Positions 29,627 through 37,831 of a stretch of 64,000 nt of DNA are shown here, one piece after another. Origin of the DNA: Streptomyces clavuligerus (GTDB taxonomy: Bacteria; Actinomycetota; Actinomycetes; Streptomycetales; Streptomycetaceae); contig NZ_CP027858.1 of the NCBI RefSeq assembly GCF_005519465.1, positions 1,054,001 through 1,118,000 on the forward strand, written 5' to 3'. The translations under genes were made by a program, and so were the position numbers. The stretch's first letter is position 1; the number at the start of each line of letters is the position of its first letter. A model generated the notes under the pieces. That model was given only the letters and a program-made list of their open reading frames with translations, was not told the DNA's origin and searched no databases.

Positions 29627-32419
<2,793 letters not shown>

Positions 32420-32420
32420 C

Positions 32421-32454
32421 TAAGGTAGGACTTAGTTAGGTAACCCTTACCCGA
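32421..32454. promoter_or_regulatory. Iron-box-like tandem sequence upstream of acnA
   Basis: TTAGGTAACCCTTACCCGA (32436-32454) matches the IdeR/DmdR box TWAGGTWAGSCTWACCTWA at 16 of 19 positions. The overlapping TAAGGTAGGACTTAGTTAG (32421-32439) matches at 14. The pair lies 68-101 bp upstream of the acnA start. Two overlapping boxes fit the paired-dimer binding of DtxR-family repressors. Binding is inference. Confidence 0.5.
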
Positions 32455-32481: not shown

Positions 32482-32499
32482 TATCTCGATGTCGAGATA
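32482..32499. promoter_or_regulatory. Palindrome upstream of acnA sharing ATCTC-N6-GAGAT
   Basis: TATCTCGATGTCGAGATA has perfect 8-bp arms and a two-base centre. It lies 129-146 bp upstream of the acnA start. The same ATCTC-N6-GAGAT frame occurs just upstream of the HTH-MurA gene (36274-36289), suggesting one regulator for both. The regulator is not identified. Confidence 0.6.
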
Positions 32500-32561
32500 A
32501 CTCTAGTACATCGGTGCGGTCCGGTCATGCGCGGGGCCGCCCTCCGGCATGGCCGGGCGGC

Positions 32562-33008
32562 TCAGCGGCCGACCGCGCGCCGGGGCAGCGGGGACGAGTA
32601 CACGACGCTGGTCGTCACGGAACCCAGGGCTCCGATCCGGCCGGAGACCTCCTCCAGATGGCGCATGGAACGCGCCGCGACCTTGATGACGAAGCAGTCG
32701 TCGCCCGTCACATGGTGGGCCTCCAGGATCTCCGGCATCGCCGCGACCAGGTCGTGGAAGGGCCTGTAGTTGCCGTTCGGGTAGCGCAGCCGGACGAACG
32801 CCAGGATCGTCAGCCCCACCTTGTCCGGGTCCACGACCGCCGCGTAGCCGCTGATGACCCCGGCCTCCTCCAGTCGGCGCACCCGCTCGGTGACCGCGCT
32901 GGCCGACATGGCGACGGCGCGCGCGAGGTCGGCGAAGCTGGCCCGGCCGTCGGCCTGGAGGACGTCGAGGATGCGCCAGTCGATGGCGTCCAGGGAAATC
33001 GTGGTCAT
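32562..33008 (-). CDS. Lrp/AsnC-family transcriptional regulator
   Basis: Protein of 148 residues, normal for the family. The N-terminal winged helix reads LDAIDWRILDVLQADGRASFADLARAVAMSASAVTERVRRLEEAGVI (split here by domain: helix-turn-helix near 22-45). The C-terminal RAM domain (about 65-140) has TILAFVRLRYPNGNY and the ligand-loop segment ILEAHHVTGDDCFVIKVAARS. Such regulators form octamers and sense amino acids or related acids. It lies upstream of acnA on the same strand with a 208-bp gap holding two operator-like sites. It is 214 bp from the divergent rhodanese gene, which could be a target. Confidence 0.9.
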   Translation of the reverse strand: MTTISLDAIDWRILDVLQADGRASFADLARAVAMSASAVTERVRRLEEAGVISGYAAVVDPDKVGLTILAFVRLRYPNGNYRPFHDLVAAMPEILEAHHVTGDDCFVIKVAARSMRHLEEVSGRIGALGSVTTSVVYSSPLPRRAVGR

Positions 33009-33222
33009 TCCCGAGAAGTAGCACGGATTCCCCGGCGAAGGCAGTCAGATGCCGTGGATGATGCCTTCAGTGCGCCGGTCCCGGACCGTAGATTCGGGTC
33101 CCGACAGCAACCGGGCGGGCCGCAGGGCCGGGTCCCGGAAGGTCCGCCGGCCGGGCGGCGGAGCCCCGCCCCGGACGTCCAGCGGCCGGGCCGCGAGACC
33201 CGGCCTTCCGGAAAGGCACCCC

Positions 33223-33702
33223 GTGACCACGACCGCCCCGAACCCCGTGCTGCGCGGCGGCCTCGCGACGCCCGCCGAGGCAGCCGCCCACTTCCGCGCC
33301 TCGCTCCGCTTCCACGCCGATGTGTCCGACGTCGCGACCGCCCTCGCCGCCGGGGACGGTGGCGGCGCCGGGTTCGTGCTCCTCGACTCCCGCTCCCCCG
33401 ACTCCTGGGAGCAGGGGCACATCCCCGGCGCGGTCCACCTGCCCACCGCGCTCATCCCCGAACGCGCCGGGGAGCTGCTCGATCCGTCGGTGCCCGTCGT
33501 CACCTACTGCTGGGGGCCGGGCTGCAACGGTGCCACCCGTGCCGCGCTCGCCCTCGCCGGACTCGGCTACCGGGTCAAGGAGATGCTCGGCGGATTCGAG
33601 TACTGGGTGCGCGAGGGCTTCGGGTACGAGACCGGACAGGGGCCCGCGCGCCGCGCCGCCGACCCGCTGACCGCCCCGGTGGCGGGCGTCTGCGGCTGCT
33701 GA
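33223..33702 (+). CDS. Rhodanese-like sulfurtransferase
   Basis: Single-domain protein of 159 residues. The rhodanese fold is marked by FVLLDSRSPDSWEQGHIPGAVHLP and the active-site loop TYCWGPGCNGATRAALALAGLGYRV, where the first Cys of YCWGPGC is the probable persulfide carrier. The second Cys, four residues on, makes a dithiol arrangement. The protein ends in Cys-Gly-Cys, adding two more thiols that may relay sulfur or bind metal. The start is GTG at 33223, after GGAAAGG; open frame upstream to 33049 is Arg/Pro-rich and unlikely to be coding. Divergent from the Lrp-type gene and convergent with the kinase gene (22 bp between stops). A role in cyanide or thiosulfate sulfur transfer is generic. 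Confidence 0.85.
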   Translation: MTTTAPNPVLRGGLATPAEAAAHFRASLRFHADVSDVATALAAGDGGGAGFVLLDSRSPDSWEQGHIPGAVHLPTALIPERAGELLDPSVPVVTYCWGPGCNGATRAALALAGLGYRVKEMLGGFEYWVREGFGYETGQGPARRAADPLTAPVAGVCGC

Positions 33703-33724
33703 GCCGGCCGGGGTGCGGAACGGC

Positions 33725-35464
33725 TCACCGGCGGGTGAGGGTGGGGTCGCCGAGGACCACATCGCCCCGGTAGCAGTACCCCTGGCGGGTCTCCGCGTAG
33801 TCGATCCTCAGCCGGAGCCCTCCGCGCACATCGAGAACGAGGGGCTCCGGATGGCCGAGGCGCAGCTCGCCGGTGTGGAGGACGTTGTCCTCGTCCAGGG
33901 TGATGACGAGCCGGGCCGCCCGGTCGGGCGACTCGTCGTCGATGCCCGCCGTGAGGGTGAGCCCGGCCCACTCCTTGTTGAGGTTGTACTCGGCGAAGCC
34001 CGAGCAGTAGTGGGGCCCCGAGACCAGGGCGGTCTCGTACCGCTTGGCGTCGAGCGCGCCGATACCGGCCCTCAGGGAGCCGCCGCCCGAGTCGAGGACC
34101 CTGAACGTGGTGAGCGGGGCGCTGTCCGGTTCGGGCCGCGGGTCGGCGGCCCTCTGCTCGGGGGGCACCGCGGGGTCCGGGACGGGCACCGATTCCCGCG
34201 GGGAGGGGAGCTGGGCCTCCAGGGTCGCGGAGAGGGAGGGGGACGACGGCGCGGCGGCGCGGTCGTCCCCGCCGCCGTCGCCGCCGCCGAGCAGGGAGCG
34301 GACCCCGACGGCGGCCAGGACGGTGAGCAGCACCAGTCCGGCCGCGGCCGCCAGGACGGGGCCCCGGCGACGGCGGCGCGGGGGCGGCGGGGCAGGCCGG
34401 GGCAGCGGCGGGCGGCGCGGCGGGATCTTTGCGGCGGGCCGGGGCTCCGGTGGCGGCGGTGGTGACGGCGGGACGACCGGCGGCGGGGCGGCCACCGGGC
34501 GCGGCGGGGCCGGGGGCGGAGGCAGAGGCGGGGGCGGCGCGTCCTGCACGGTCGGGGGATGGGGGGCGGCCGGGCCCGGCGTCACCCCGTGCCGCAGATC
34601 CGCCACCCACGCCGACAGGCTCGCGGGCCGCCGGTCCGGGTCGGCCGAGGCGATCGCGACCACGCGTTCCCGGCGCGCCGGGGCGAGCCCGGCGATCCGC
34701 GGCAGCGCGGCCAGCCCTCCGGCGAGCTGTCCGGGGGACGGCGGCGGCGCCCCGCCGGTGAGCAGGAAGTAGGCGATCGCCCCGAAGGCGTAGCGGTCCG
34801 TGGCCGGGGTGCGCAGGCCCTCGAAGACCTCCGGCGCGGCGTAGCCGGGGGTGAACCAGATCTCGGCGGTGCGGTGGTCGGCCGTCAGTTTGCTCAGCCC
34901 GAAGTCGACCAGGGTGGCCTGTCCGTCCTCGTCCACCATCACATTGCCCGGGGAGAGGTCGCCGTGGACGACGGCCCGGCCGGACGGGGTGGCGCGGCCG
35001 GAGTGCAGCCAGTCCAGCACATCGGCCAACTGCTCCAGGGTGCGCAGGAGTTCGCGCCGTCCGGCCGGGTCGGCGAGGGTGCGTCCGGCCCGCCAGTCGG
35101 CCAGGTCGAGGCCGTCGACCCGGTTCATCACCAGGGCCAGGGCCCGGCCGGGGAGATCACCGGAGCCGCCCGGTGGATGGATCGGCGGCCCCTGGAAGTG
35201 CTCCCGCACCCCGACGACTCCGGGCCGGTGGACGAATCTCAGCAGTTCGGCCTGTTCGCTCCAGCTCCGGCTGAGCCGGTCGAACTCCTCGGCCGTGAGC
35301 GCCGTACGGGAGTCGAGCACCTTGACCACCACGGGTTCGACCGCACCGGCCAGCTCGATCTCCGCCAGATAGAGCACGGCCTCGCCCCCGCGTCCGATGG
35401 ACCGGAGCAGCCGGTAGCGGTCCGGAGCCGAATCCGGCCCGATACGGTGCGCCGCACTGTTCAC
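33725..35464 (-). CDS. Membrane Ser/Thr protein kinase with extracellular NPCBM-like domain
   Basis: Protein of about 579 residues. The kinase domain (about 15-285) has the glycine loop SIGRGGEAVLYLAE, lysine in VVVKVLDS, a variant catalytic loop VVHGDLSPGNVMVDE (HGD instead of HRD), DFG in LVDFGLSKL and FTPGYAAPEVF. A Pro-rich linker of about 100 residues leads to one transmembrane helix (VLAAAAGLVLLTVLAAVGV). An outside domain (about 455-579) resembles NPCBM sugar-binding modules, with TTFRVLDSGGGSLRAGIGAL and two cysteines that may pair. It would transmit an envelope signal inward. The start is uncertain: GTG at 35464 is used; GTG at 35548 would add 28 residues. Confidence 0.85.
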   Translation of the reverse strand: MNSAAHRIGPDSAPDRYRLLRSIGRGGEAVLYLAEIELAGAVEPVVVKVLDSRTALTAEEFDRLSRSWSEQAELLRFVHRPGVVGVREHFQGPPIHPPGGSGDLPGRALALVMNRVDGLDLADWRAGRTLADPAGRRELLRTLEQLADVLDWLHSGRATPSGRAVVHGDLSPGNVMVDEDGQATLVDFGLSKLTADHRTAEIWFTPGYAAPEVFEGLRTPATDRYAFGAIAYFLLTGGAPPPSPGQLAGGLAALPRIAGLAPARRERVVAIASADPDRRPASLSAWVADLRHGVTPGPAAPHPPTVQDAPPPPLPPPPAPPRPVAAPPPVVPPSPPPPPEPRPAAKIPPRRPPLPRPAPPPPRRRRRGPVLAAAAGLVLLTVLAAVGVRSLLGGGDGGGDDRAAAPSSPSLSATLEAQLPSPRESVPVPDPAVPPEQRAADPRPEPDSAPLTTFRVLDSGGGSLRAGIGALDAKRYETALVSGPHYCSGFAEYNLNKEWAGLTLTAGIDDESPDRAARLVITLDEDNVLHTGELRLGHPEPLVLDVRGGLRLRIDYAETRQGYCYRGDVVLGDPTLTRR

Positions 35465-35753
35465 CCATTCCCCCAACCCGCTTGCCCTACGGGGCAGTTC
35501 AGCTTGCCCGGGGGTGGTGGCGGGGTCAACGAGACAGACCGCCTTCACGGGATGAACACACCTCCCCCATATCGGCCAGAAGGAAGATCAACAAAGTGGT
35601 GACCAGCCTATTTACTTGCCCTTTGCCTAGTGGCAAGCTGACGGTCACTTCGGCGCCACGGCGACCATCACCCTCATTTCCCTTGTTCCTGCCGGTGGTT
35701 GGCGTGCGCCCGAAATTCCCTTGATGACCCCCCACAAAAAACGGAGAGTTCAC

Positions 35754-36026
35754 GTGAAGCGTCGTATGCGCAGTGCGGGTGTGACGGTGGCGATGCTGGG
35801 TGCGGCGCTGGTGATGTCCAGCGGCGTCGCGCAGGCCCAGGAGCAGCAGCCGGCCCCGCGCCCGTCCATCGGCCTGATCAACATCACCGGACCGCTGATC
35901 TACAACACCGGTGACATCGACCTGCTGGAGGATGTGTTCGAGCACATCAGCATCCCGATCCTGGGCCAGGCCGTGCACCAGATGTACGACTGGGCGAAGT
36001 TCGACGGGAAGCTCTTCCGCCGCTGA
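35754..36026 (+). CDS. Small secreted protein of unknown function
   Basis: Predicted protein of 90 residues. A signal peptide (1-29: KRRMRSAGVTVAMLGAALV, then SSGVAQAQ) leads to a short mature chain of about 60 residues. It contains PSIGLINITGPLIYNTGDID and EHISIPILGQAVHQMYDWAKFDGKL. There are no cysteines and no chaplin or rodlin pattern. GTG at 35754 has GGAGAG eight bases upstream, and the frame has normal codon use, so it is probably real although not recognised. Two nested inverted repeats lie about 110-160 bp upstream (GTGACC/GGTCAC and CTTGCC/GGCAAG). It sits between the membrane kinase and the HTH-MurA gene. Confidence 0.65.
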   Translation: MKRRMRSAGVTVAMLGAALVMSSGVAQAQEQQPAPRPSIGLINITGPLIYNTGDIDLLEDVFEHISIPILGQAVHQMYDWAKFDGKLFRR

Positions 36027-36273
36027 CGTCGCACGGCTCTCCGGAGCCGGTCACCCGCCCGGCCGCCGACCGCCGCCCGCAGAGCGCCGGTCCGGCCGGG
36101 CCTCGACCGGCCCACATGACCTGCTTTCCCCGTTTGACCTATTCAGTCCATTTGAATCATTTGGCCTATTTTCATTTGACGGCCGCCATCCGCCGACGGA
36201 TCGTCAAGGGGCGGCCTCCCGCCGGGCCCGACCGGGGGACTCTCACCCATCCGCCACCCCCGGCGCGCACTTC

Positions 36274-36289
36274 ATCTCATATCTGAGAT
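36274..36289. promoter_or_regulatory. Palindrome immediately upstream of the HTH-MurA gene
   Basis: ATCTCATATCTGAGAT has perfect 6-bp arms and lies 12 bp before the start codon. It shares ATCTC-N6-GAGAT with the acnA upstream palindrome. The site would block transcription or initiation, so the gene's own XRE domain is a candidate binder. Upstream, 36120-36175 is A+T-rich, with TTTGACCTATT and TTTGGCCTATT as direct repeats. Confidence 0.6.
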
Positions 36290-36301
36290 AGCCTCAAGCC
36301 C

Positions 36302-37831
36302 ATGGCAGACGACTACCTCGTACGTATCGGCAAGCTCATCAGGGATGCACGTCAGCATCGTGGCTGGACACAAACGCAGCTCGCGGAGGCTCTCGGCACC
36401 AGCCAGAGCGCGGTCAACCGCATTGAGCGCGGCAACCAGAACATCAGCCTTGAGATGATCGCCCGCATTGGTGAGGCGCTGGACAGCGAGATCGTCTCCC
36501 TCGGCTATGCCGGACCGATGCATCTGCGGGTGGTCGGCGGCCGTCGCCTCTCCGGCGCCATCGACGTCAAGACGAGCAAGAACGCCTGTGTGGCGCTGCT
36601 CTGCGGGTCGCTGCTGAACAAGGGGCGCACGGTGCTGCGCCGGGTGGCCCGGATCGAGGAGGTCTTCCGGCTCCTGGAGGTGCTGAACTCCATCGGCGTC
36701 CGCACCCGCTGGATCAACGAGGGCGTGGACCTGGAGATCGTGCCGCCCGCCCGGCTGGACATGGACGCCATCGACGCGGACGCGGCCCGCCGCACCCGGT
36801 CGATCATCATGTTCCTCGGCCCGCTGCTGCACCGGATGGACTCGTTCAAGCTGCCCTACGCGGGCGGCTGCGACCTCGGCACCCGCACGATCGAACCGCA
36901 CATGATCGCGCTGCGCCGCTTCGGCCTGGACATCACCGCCACGGAGGGCCTGTACCACGCGCGGGTGGAGCGGTCGACGGCCCCCGGCCGCCCGATCGTC
37001 CTGACCGAGCGCGGGGACACCGTCACCGAGAACGCGCTGCTCGCGGCCGCCCGGCACGACGGTGTGACCGTCATCCGCAACGCCTCGTCCAACTACATGG
37101 TCCAGGACCTCTGCTTCTTCCTGGAGGCGCTGGGCGTCCGGGTCGAGGGCGTCGGCACCACGACACTGACCGTGCACGGTGTGCCGGACATCGACGTCGA
37201 CGTCGACTACTCCCCCTCCGAGGACCCGGTCGAGGCGATGAGCCTGCTGGCCGCCGCCGTCGTGACCGAGTCGGAGCTGACGATCCGCCGGGTCCCGATC
37301 GAGTTCCTGGAGATCGAGCTGGCGGTCCTGGAGGAGATGGGCCTCGACCACGACCGCTCCAGCGAGTACACCGCCGACAACGGCCGCACCCGGCTGGTGG
37401 ACCTGACCGTGCGCCCCTCCAAGCTGGAGGCGCCGATCGACAAGATCCACCCCATGCCGTTCCCGGGGCTGAACATCGACAACGTCCCCTTCTTCGCGGC
37501 GATCGCGGCGGTGGCGCAGGGCCAGACCCTGATCCATGACTGGGTCTACGACAACCGCGCCATCTACCTCACCGACCTCAACCGCCTCGGCGGCCGGCTC
37601 CAGCTCCTCGACCCGCACCGCGTACTGGTCGAGGGCCCCACCCGCTGGCGCGCCGCCGAGATGATGTGCCCGCCCGCGCTGCGCCCCGCGGTGGTCGTCC
37701 TGCTCGCGATGATGGCGGCGGAGGGGACCTCGGTCCTGCGCAATGTGTATGTCATCAACCGCGGCTACGAGGAGCTGGCGGAGCGGCTGAACTCGGTGGG
37801 TGCCCAGATCGAGATCTTCCGGGACATCTGA
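36302..37831 (+). CDS. murA2: XRE helix-turn-helix fused to UDP-GlcNAc 1-carboxyvinyltransferase (MurA paralogue)
   Basis: Protein of 509 residues. An XRE-type DNA-binding domain (about 5-65: GKLIRDARQHRGWTQTQLAE, TSQSAVNRIERG) precedes a full EPSP-synthase-like MurA domain (about 72-509). Catalytic residues appear kept: Lys-Asn in DVKTSKNACVALL, the PEP-adduct Cys in YAGGCDLGTRTIEPHM, Asp in FPGLNIDNVPFFA and Arg in YVINRGYEEL. It could therefore make UDP-GlcNAc-enolpyruvate, the first step of peptidoglycan precursor synthesis, and also bind DNA. Standard MurA is about 420-450 residues. A perfect palindrome 12 bp upstream of the ATG suggests self-regulation. Convergent with the SpoIIE-type phosphatase gene, 13 bp apart. 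Confidence 0.88.
   Translation: MADDYLVRIGKLIRDARQHRGWTQTQLAEALGTSQSAVNRIERGNQNISLEMIARIGEALDSEIVSLGYAGPMHLRVVGGRRLSGAIDVKTSKNACVALLCGSLLNKGRTVLRRVARIEEVFRLLEVLNSIGVRTRWINEGVDLEIVPPARLDMDAIDADAARRTRSIIMFLGPLLHRMDSFKLPYAGGCDLGTRTIEPHMIALRRFGLDITATEGLYHARVERSTAPGRPIVLTERGDTVTENALLAAARHDGVTVIRNASSNYMVQDLCFFLEALGVRVEGVGTTTLTVHGVPDIDVDVDYSPSEDPVEAMSLLAAAVVTESELTIRRVPIEFLEIELAVLEEMGLDHDRSSEYTADNGRTRLVDLTVRPSKLEAPIDKIHPMPFPGLNIDNVPFFAAIAAVAQGQTLIHDWVYDNRAIYLTDLNRLGGRLQLLDPHRVLVEGPTRWRAAEMMCPPALRPAVVVLLAMMAAEGTSVLRNVYVINRGYEELAERLNSVGAQIEIFRDI

Follow-up and report, generated by a model that had tools for sequence, protein, structure and literature searches.

Comparative evidence that an HTH-MurA fusion protein probably represses its own promoter, and for a probable separate TamR-type operator at the neighbouring aconitase gene, in Streptomyces clavuligerus

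The aconitase gene acnA of Streptomyces clavuligerus lies close to a gene, murA2, whose product joins an XRE-type helix-turn-helix (HTH) to a MurA-like domain and is called HTH-MurA here. Both genes are contained in a stretch of 64,000 nucleotides (contig NZ_CP027858.1, positions 1,054,001 to 1,118,000), the whole of which was analysed and is referred to as the window. Each gene is preceded by a dyad matching ATCTC-N6-GAGAT, namely TATCTCGATGTCGAGATA at 32482-32499 for acnA and ATCTCATATCTGAGAT at 36274-36289, 12 bp upstream of the ATG at 36302, for murA2. These positions had been given in a preliminary description of the DNA and were confirmed. That description took the two for one dyad, through which HTH-MurA would regulate both its own gene and acnA and so link the status of UDP-N-acetylglucosamine (UDP-GlcNAc) and phosphoenolpyruvate (PEP) to the citric acid cycle. 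The two dyads are the only exact matches in the window; with at most one mismatch there are 5 matches for 1.01 expected, and none of 100 shuffles scored as high. The pair was worth examining, because the two exact sites lie 3.8 kb apart and upstream of genes, in an 8.54-Mb genome that holds 14 such sites in all (about 0.1 expected per 64 kb). The comparisons described below make it very likely that HTH-MurA acts at the promoter of its own gene, as a DNA-binder and probably as a repressor, and that aconitase belongs to a different, TamR-type circuit.

HTH-MurA is, by name and neighbourhood, the orthologue of SCO5998 and sven5810, and its closest relative found is a protein of S. inusitatus (98% identical). 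Its HTH domain scores 57.1 bits with PF01381 (cut-off 23), and within it we take the segment TSQSAVNRIE to be the recognition helix, a placement based on knowledge of the family. The catalytic residues of the second domain align with those of MurA structures in the PDB and are conserved throughout 167 rows; among 130 MurA domains they are kept in at least 128, with one R166H and otherwise gaps. They presumably correspond to K22, N23, R91, C115, R120, D305 and R397 in the numbering of E. coli MurA. In this respect the preliminary description, which had proposed a fusion with kept catalytic residues, was right. The protein scores 303.7 bits with the MurA equivalog TIGR01072, below the cut-off of 392.7, and 318.1 bits with subfamily NF006873, above the cut-off of 297. 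It is thus clearly MurA-like by its sequence, while its catalysis is putative, as the protein falls short of the TIGR01072 cut-off. Similar genes were detected in 86 of 296 genomes of the class and in 170 of 186 genomes of family f33 (E ≤ 1e-60), as well as in 185 of 198 genomes of family f42 and 65 of 245 of family f3 (E ≤ 1e-100). The literature searched, which lacked most subscription papers, held no report of a DNA-binding MurA and no paper with these dyad strings.

The dyad before murA2 is widely conserved. Among 109 Streptomyces-type loci it was found within 60 bp of the start, exactly in 102 and with one mismatch in the other 7, mostly in the form ATCTCATATCTGAGATA. A TANNNT sequence overlaps the end of the dyad by two bases, and the distance from dyad to start codon is about 12 bp, an arrangement from which a leaderless or nearly leaderless murA2 transcript appears likely. 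In 56 of 58 genomes from outside Streptomyces that carry HTH-MurA, CTCA-N4-TGAG or CTCA-N4-TGAT precedes the gene. Within S. clavuligerus itself the murA operator is the only place matched with up to 3 mismatches. When the 296 class genomes were scanned with WWCTCAYATSTGAGWTA, allowing one mismatch, the pattern occurred in 70 of the 86 genomes with HTH-MurA versus 6 of the 210 without. In those 70 a site lies each time no more than about 40 bp from the matched start; 68 carry the pattern only there, and two further sites occur (G208, G209). The six sites in genomes lacking HTH-MurA lie inside open frames (G245, G286), at the end of a frame (G065), between two genes with no XRE domain in view (G203), before an XRE-cupin-like gene (G141) and before an isochorismatase-like gene (G016).

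An indication of which protein reads this dyad comes from genes in which the recognition helix has decayed. We compared 351 gene starts, of which 341 were distinct after removal of 10 exact duplicates; the rows are a non-random sample, because the more diverged members of f33 and f42 were included by design. Two rows were dropped, L472 for want of a match and L364 as a piece of an additional MurA-like copy containing stop codons, which in its genome (G401) lies near an intact HTH-MurA gene. An operator was scored when the right arm matched TGA[GT]NT[AT] and at least 3 of 7 positions of the left arm agreed. By this rule it was present in 321 of 331 genes with an intact or conservatively changed helix, in 0 of 10 with the helix ruined or the HTH absent, and in 64 of 6820 shuffles. 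Six genes with TAQSAV or TVQSAV (L473, L474, L475, L492, L493, L495), classed mechanically as altered, had been moved by hand to the intact group because the change is conservative, and all six keep the dyad; with them kept apart the counts are 0/10 ruined, 6/6 conservatively altered and 315/325 unaltered. L370, with TQPSAV, was counted as ruined though its change is milder than the others. The stricter core CTCA-N4-TGAG was found exactly in 225 of the 341 genes and with one mismatch in 65, versus 0 and 7 of 341 shuffled sequences.

Close relatives on either side of these losses can be compared. Among the 58 non-Streptomyces genomes, the only two without the dyad, G081 and G273 of genus g55, are also the only two with a ruined helix (TSQSAVNRIE replaced by MTEQDIEQIE and MTGTDIEQIE). 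Two more species of g55 have lost both helix and dyad, and their congener G301 has both. Likewise, HTH and dyad are both missing from G313 and both present in its congener G128; G317 combines TQPSAV instead of TSQSAV with absence of the dyad, and its congener G319 has helix and dyad. In family f42 the dyad is missing from G597, G604, G645 and G585, all of which have a ruined helix. In a tree of 130 MurA domains the four g55 losses fall into a single clade (support 100) beside G301 (83), and G313 is sister to G128 (support 100). Helix and operator were thus lost independently at least twice, and the genera involved point to four or more such events. All five helix-lost genes for which the complete sequence was available (L161 in two pieces) retain the catalytic residues, and a TANNNT judged by eye lies near the start of the helix-lost genes. 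Absence of the operator where the helix is lost is what would be expected if HTH-MurA itself reads the dyad. Self-regulation by HTH-MurA is therefore well supported by comparison, and this part of the proposal in the preliminary description stands.

The acnA dyad is conserved in another way. Its full 18-mer TATCTCGACATCGAGATA is exact in all 81 Streptomyces-type loci in which acnA was found, with no column varying among 78 distinct sequences. The remaining 28 of the 109 loci are for the most part short stretches or contig ends; in four full-length loci (L078, L079, L081, L098) there is no acnA within 10 kb. The -10-like TAGAGT ends directly at the dyad, with the -35-like ATGACC 17 bp further up, and the dyad should therefore probably cover the transcription start. 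The agreement between the two dyads is limited to the outer five bases of each arm, whereas the central six differ and are conserved differently, being mostly ATATCT at murA and invariably GACATC at acnA in the Streptomyces-type loci. Among the 58 HTH-MurA genomes outside Streptomyces, the exact ATCTC-N6-GAGAT is found upstream of acnA in none, versus 19 at murA, the usual form at acnA being TATCTTGA..TCAAGATA; a TamR-type site with up to 2 mismatches precedes acnA in 39. The shared half-site thus appears to be a Streptomyces feature, and is most simply a coincidence. A single operator common to both genes was rejected, as the central bases, the distribution and the half-sites outside Streptomyces differ. 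The earlier description as one dyad is not borne out, even though the conservation that it asked for among orthologues is found at both genes.

Searching the S. clavuligerus genome with the acnA 18-mer, allowing up to 3 mismatches, returned acnA, two sites inside coding sequence (L126, L127) and a site about 27 bp upstream of the gene for a monomeric isocitrate dehydrogenase, idh (TATCTTGATGTCGAGCAA, L128 1501-1518, 3 of 18 positions mismatched to the acnA site), whose product scores 829 bits with PF03971. Of the 14 exact ATCTC-N6-GAGAT sites of the genome, only those near the two motifs were examined as regulon members. A further palindrome, TCTCTTGACGTCAAGATA (L131:1307-1324), lies between tam, which encodes a methyltransferase domain, and a divergent gene (L131:776-1348, minus strand) for a MarR-type protein; it has 1 mismatch to the class-wide pattern TATCTYGAYRTCRAGATA, and none of 200 shuffles contained a match with up to 3. 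The MarR product is above the Pfam cut-off, and its best PDB matches, 8ylf and 8ylh, are entries named MarR family regulator and 'Regulatory protein'. Divergence of tam and tamR is also what we take to be the TamR layout. With up to one mismatch, TATCTYGAYRTCRAGATA occurs in 199 of the 296 class genomes, that is in 84 of 86 with HTH-MurA and 115 of 210 without; a reversed control pattern is present in some but is much rarer. Of 30 motif loci from these genomes, 17 are upstream of acnA, 3 upstream of idh and 4 at tam, and the remaining 6 are at none of the three. Sites are found at idh in the S. clavuligerus genome, and at acnA, idh and tam in other genera. In the available passages of a review (PMC5487221), TamR of S. 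coelicolor is a repressor of the aconitase gene and other citric acid cycle genes that is released by citrate and trans-aconitate. The acnA dyad is thus probably part of a separate 18-bp motif common to idh and tam/tamR, and fits a TamR-type circuit. As a separate observation, the highest numbers of palindrome copies in the class survey were seen in G058 and G074 of family f31 (10 and 8), and the loci read from them (L179, L180) contain none of acnA, idh, tam and tamR.

Table 1. Features of the acnA-murA2 region (window coordinates)
Feature	Position	Strand	Basis
acnA, aconitate hydratase	29627..32368	-	translation; NCBIfam TIGR01341 1305.6 bits, cut-off 945
Iron-box-like stretch in acnA leader, candidate DmdR1 site	32421..32450	-	sequence
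Predicted acnA operator, TamR-type 18-bp palindrome TATCTCGACATCGAGATA	32482..32499	.	conservation; like motif at idh, tam/tamR
-10-like TAGAGT of acnA, adjoining operator	32500..32505	-	columns nearly invariant
-35-like ATGACC of acnA, 17 bp from TAGAGT	32523..32528	-	conserved columns
BldM-WhiI-like site, weak, 3 of 12 defined positions mismatched	36243..36258	-	motif from PMC4125116
Predicted HTH-MurA operator CATCTCATATCTGAGATA, core CTCA-N4-TGAG at 36276-36287	36273..36290	.	conservation
-10-like TAGCCT, overlapping last two operator bases	36289..36294	+	sequence; TANNNT there in 274/321 operator-bearing genes
HTH-MurA gene, 509 aa, murA2, SCO5998 type	36302..37831	+	Pfam HTH_3 and EPSP_synthase; PDB MurA matches
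XRE/HTH_3 DNA-binding domain, residues 13-64	36338..36493	+	Pfam; conservation
EPSP_synthase/MurA domain, residues 79-496, with K93, N94, R166, C190, R195, D393, R461	36536..37789	+	Pfam; PDB alignment; conservation

Further candidate regulatory sites lie in this region (Table 1). The candidate DmdR1 site in the acnA leader was read against what we take to be the iron-box consensus. The passages available of PMC12161575 list a predicted DmdR1 site of S. coelicolor that falls between SCO5998 and SCO5999. Upstream of the murA dyad, usually by 13-17 bp, Streptomyces loci (L016-L124) carry a TCACCCGAACGG block that corresponds to the BldM-WhiI motif read on the opposite strand; a match with at most 3 mismatches, the number in the window copy, is present in 84 of 103 distinct loci versus 12 of 103 shuffled ones. 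The part available of PMC4125116 reports BldM-WhiI footprints on murA2 of S. venezuelae, with BldM-WhiI as activator. A SigB-dependent promoter of SCO5998 in S. coelicolor appears in the accessible text of PMC8346170, and the promoter sequence as given there was not found within 2 mismatches in the S. violaceoruber locus L103. Between acnA and murA2 the window holds, at 32562-33702 and 33725-36026, Lrp/AsnC, rhodanese and protein-kinase genes and a small secreted-looking gene. The acnA dyad as a site of the Lrp/AsnC protein is not favoured, since the motif goes with tamR and since in 14 of the 71 named Streptomyces loci with both genes fewer than 600 bp separate the acnA and murA2 starts, which leaves little room for an Lrp/AsnC gene.

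Several observations weigh against the interpretation given here. On the side of murA, the operator rule was framed after the sequences had been viewed, and 10 of the 331 intact-helix genes miss it, though each has an imperfect dyad. Among the 86 genomes with HTH-MurA, 16 do not match the class-wide murA pattern, some of them because of drift. Many operators of family f3 (L435-L464, L496-L502) have drifted towards TATNGCA-N4-TGATAT(A/T) with the helix still TSQSAVARMEQ or close to it, and genus g152 (L362, L384, L396, L400) combines an ordinary helix with a dyad extended by 2 bp, TATCTCATATATGTGATCTA. Dyads of the same type also stand directly upstream of XRE genes that match cupin weakly and encode no MurA domain (L270:1986-2002 in G141, L274:2007-2023 in G208); this operator layout may be shared by related XRE proteins, and another XRE protein could in principle use a murA-type operator. 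The dyad might accordingly be bound by another conserved XRE regulator, the HTH of HTH-MurA acting elsewhere or not at all. We regard this as very unlikely, because operator loss accompanies loss of the protein's own helix in 10 of 10 genes from several lineages, and because the class-wide pattern is almost confined to murA where HTH-MurA is present. That HTH-MurA activates rather than represses its promoter would agree with the position of the dyad just upstream of the TANNNT -10 and with the lack of a clear -35 recognised by eye. Set against this, the helix-lost genes keep their TANNNT and, in those read completely, an undamaged MurA domain, as though the cell tolerated their expression in the absence of the DNA-binder, and an activator, BldM-WhiI, is already reported for murA2 of S. 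venezuelae; autoactivation is unlikely, repression being the preferred reading.

On the side of acnA, tam passes its family cut-off only just (320.2 bits versus 320 for NF010703), the likeness of the acnA dyad to TamR sites was judged from the palindromes at idh and tam/tamR, and 19 of the 58 non-Streptomyces HTH-MurA genomes show no TamR-type site with up to 2 mismatches in the 330-450 bases before acnA. Some operators of f42 have one CTCG arm, as the acnA site has on both arms, and given that arm some cross-recognition of the acnA site is conceivable. Together with the common outer half-sites and spacing, and with the divergent arrangement of acnA and murA2 in Streptomyces, where the starts are less than 3 kb apart in 51 of the 71 named loci, this speaks for HTH-MurA binding both dyads and coupling cell-wall precursor status to aconitase. 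The distribution of the motifs argues otherwise. The acnA motif is associated with idh and tam/tamR and is also present in genomes that lack HTH-MurA, as in 15 of the 17 with the motif before acnA; in G081 and G273 it persists at acnA despite the ruined MurA helix; ATCTC-N6-GAGAT is absent from acnA in the 58 HTH-MurA genomes outside Streptomyces; and 40 HTH-MurA genes of other genera have no acnA match upstream (within about 8 kb at most, a few stretches ending at contig ends). Coupling of the two genes by HTH-MurA is therefore scarcely credible, and the UDP-GlcNAc/PEP link to the citric acid cycle, together with the acnA part of the preliminary proposal, finds no support, the acnA motif being separate.

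The two neighbouring genes would then be under different regulators. Comparison of sequences bears out both operators, the way they are distributed and the joint variation of murA operator and HTH, and the literature supplies repression of aconitase by TamR and binding of BldM-WhiI to murA2; HTH-MurA itself as the binder, its role as a repressor and any ligand control are inferences. Through its XRE-type N-terminal domain, HTH-MurA would bind TAWCTCA-N4-TGAGWTA over the -10 region of its own promoter and would most likely block RNA polymerase there, resulting in negative autoregulation; for a site placed on the -10 region, repression through steric hindrance is the simplest explanation. In Streptomyces this repression would work against BldM-WhiI, which would activate from its site immediately upstream. 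On this view murA2 is a developmental gene that BldM-WhiI turns on and whose own product then restrains it. The MurA domain, with its catalytic residues kept, may let substrate status tune DNA binding. That the protein is a metabolite-gated self-repressor, whose grip on the promoter is altered by occupancy with UDP-GlcNAc and/or PEP (or fosfomycin), is a tentative idea to which we give somewhat less than an even chance. The acnA palindrome would be the operator of a TamR-like repressor of the MarR family, for which citrate or trans-aconitate would be the releasing ligand; idh and tam are probably under its control as well.

Fusions of an enzyme with a repressor are known from the biotin ligase BirA, PutA and NadR. 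HTH-MurA resembles them in that a single polypeptide contains both a metabolic enzyme and a DNA-binding domain, and in that its own promoter is the predicted operator. It differs from them in that an XRE-type HTH is placed on a MurA (enolpyruvyl transferase) domain of cell-wall synthesis, and in that there is usually one site per genome, with no pathway operon seen. Its HTH is of the same XRE family as HipB and C.AhdI/C.BclI, found among the PDB matches. HipB and the controller proteins regulate their own promoters; they are free-standing small regulators, whereas HTH-MurA is fused to an enzyme. As far as PMC5487221 and PMC6391409 were accessible, the acnA system resembles that of S. coelicolor TamR, with a MarR gene divergent from tam and a palindromic site, and the acnA dyad fits this reported repressor of aconitase and other citric acid cycle genes, the evidence here being comparative. 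The passages on MurA2, SCO5998 and sven5810 available from PMC12161575, PMC4125116 and PMC8346170 make no mention of an HTH domain or of the murA dyad. HTH-MurA would thus appear to join a known kind of protein, in a pathway for which the literature searched showed none.

With the aconitase dyad accounted for by a TamR-type circuit, a link between the cell wall and the citric acid cycle is not worth pursuing on present evidence. A second MurA with its own DNA-binding domain and a matching operator, occurring in many actinobacterial genera, would instead provide direct feedback from cell-wall synthesis to transcription. This feedback can be tested with one protein and one 18-bp DNA, for which the natural joint losses of helix and operator are ready-made controls. 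If metabolite gating is true, the cell would measure its supply of cell-wall precursors by the first-step enzyme itself, across many actinobacterial genera.

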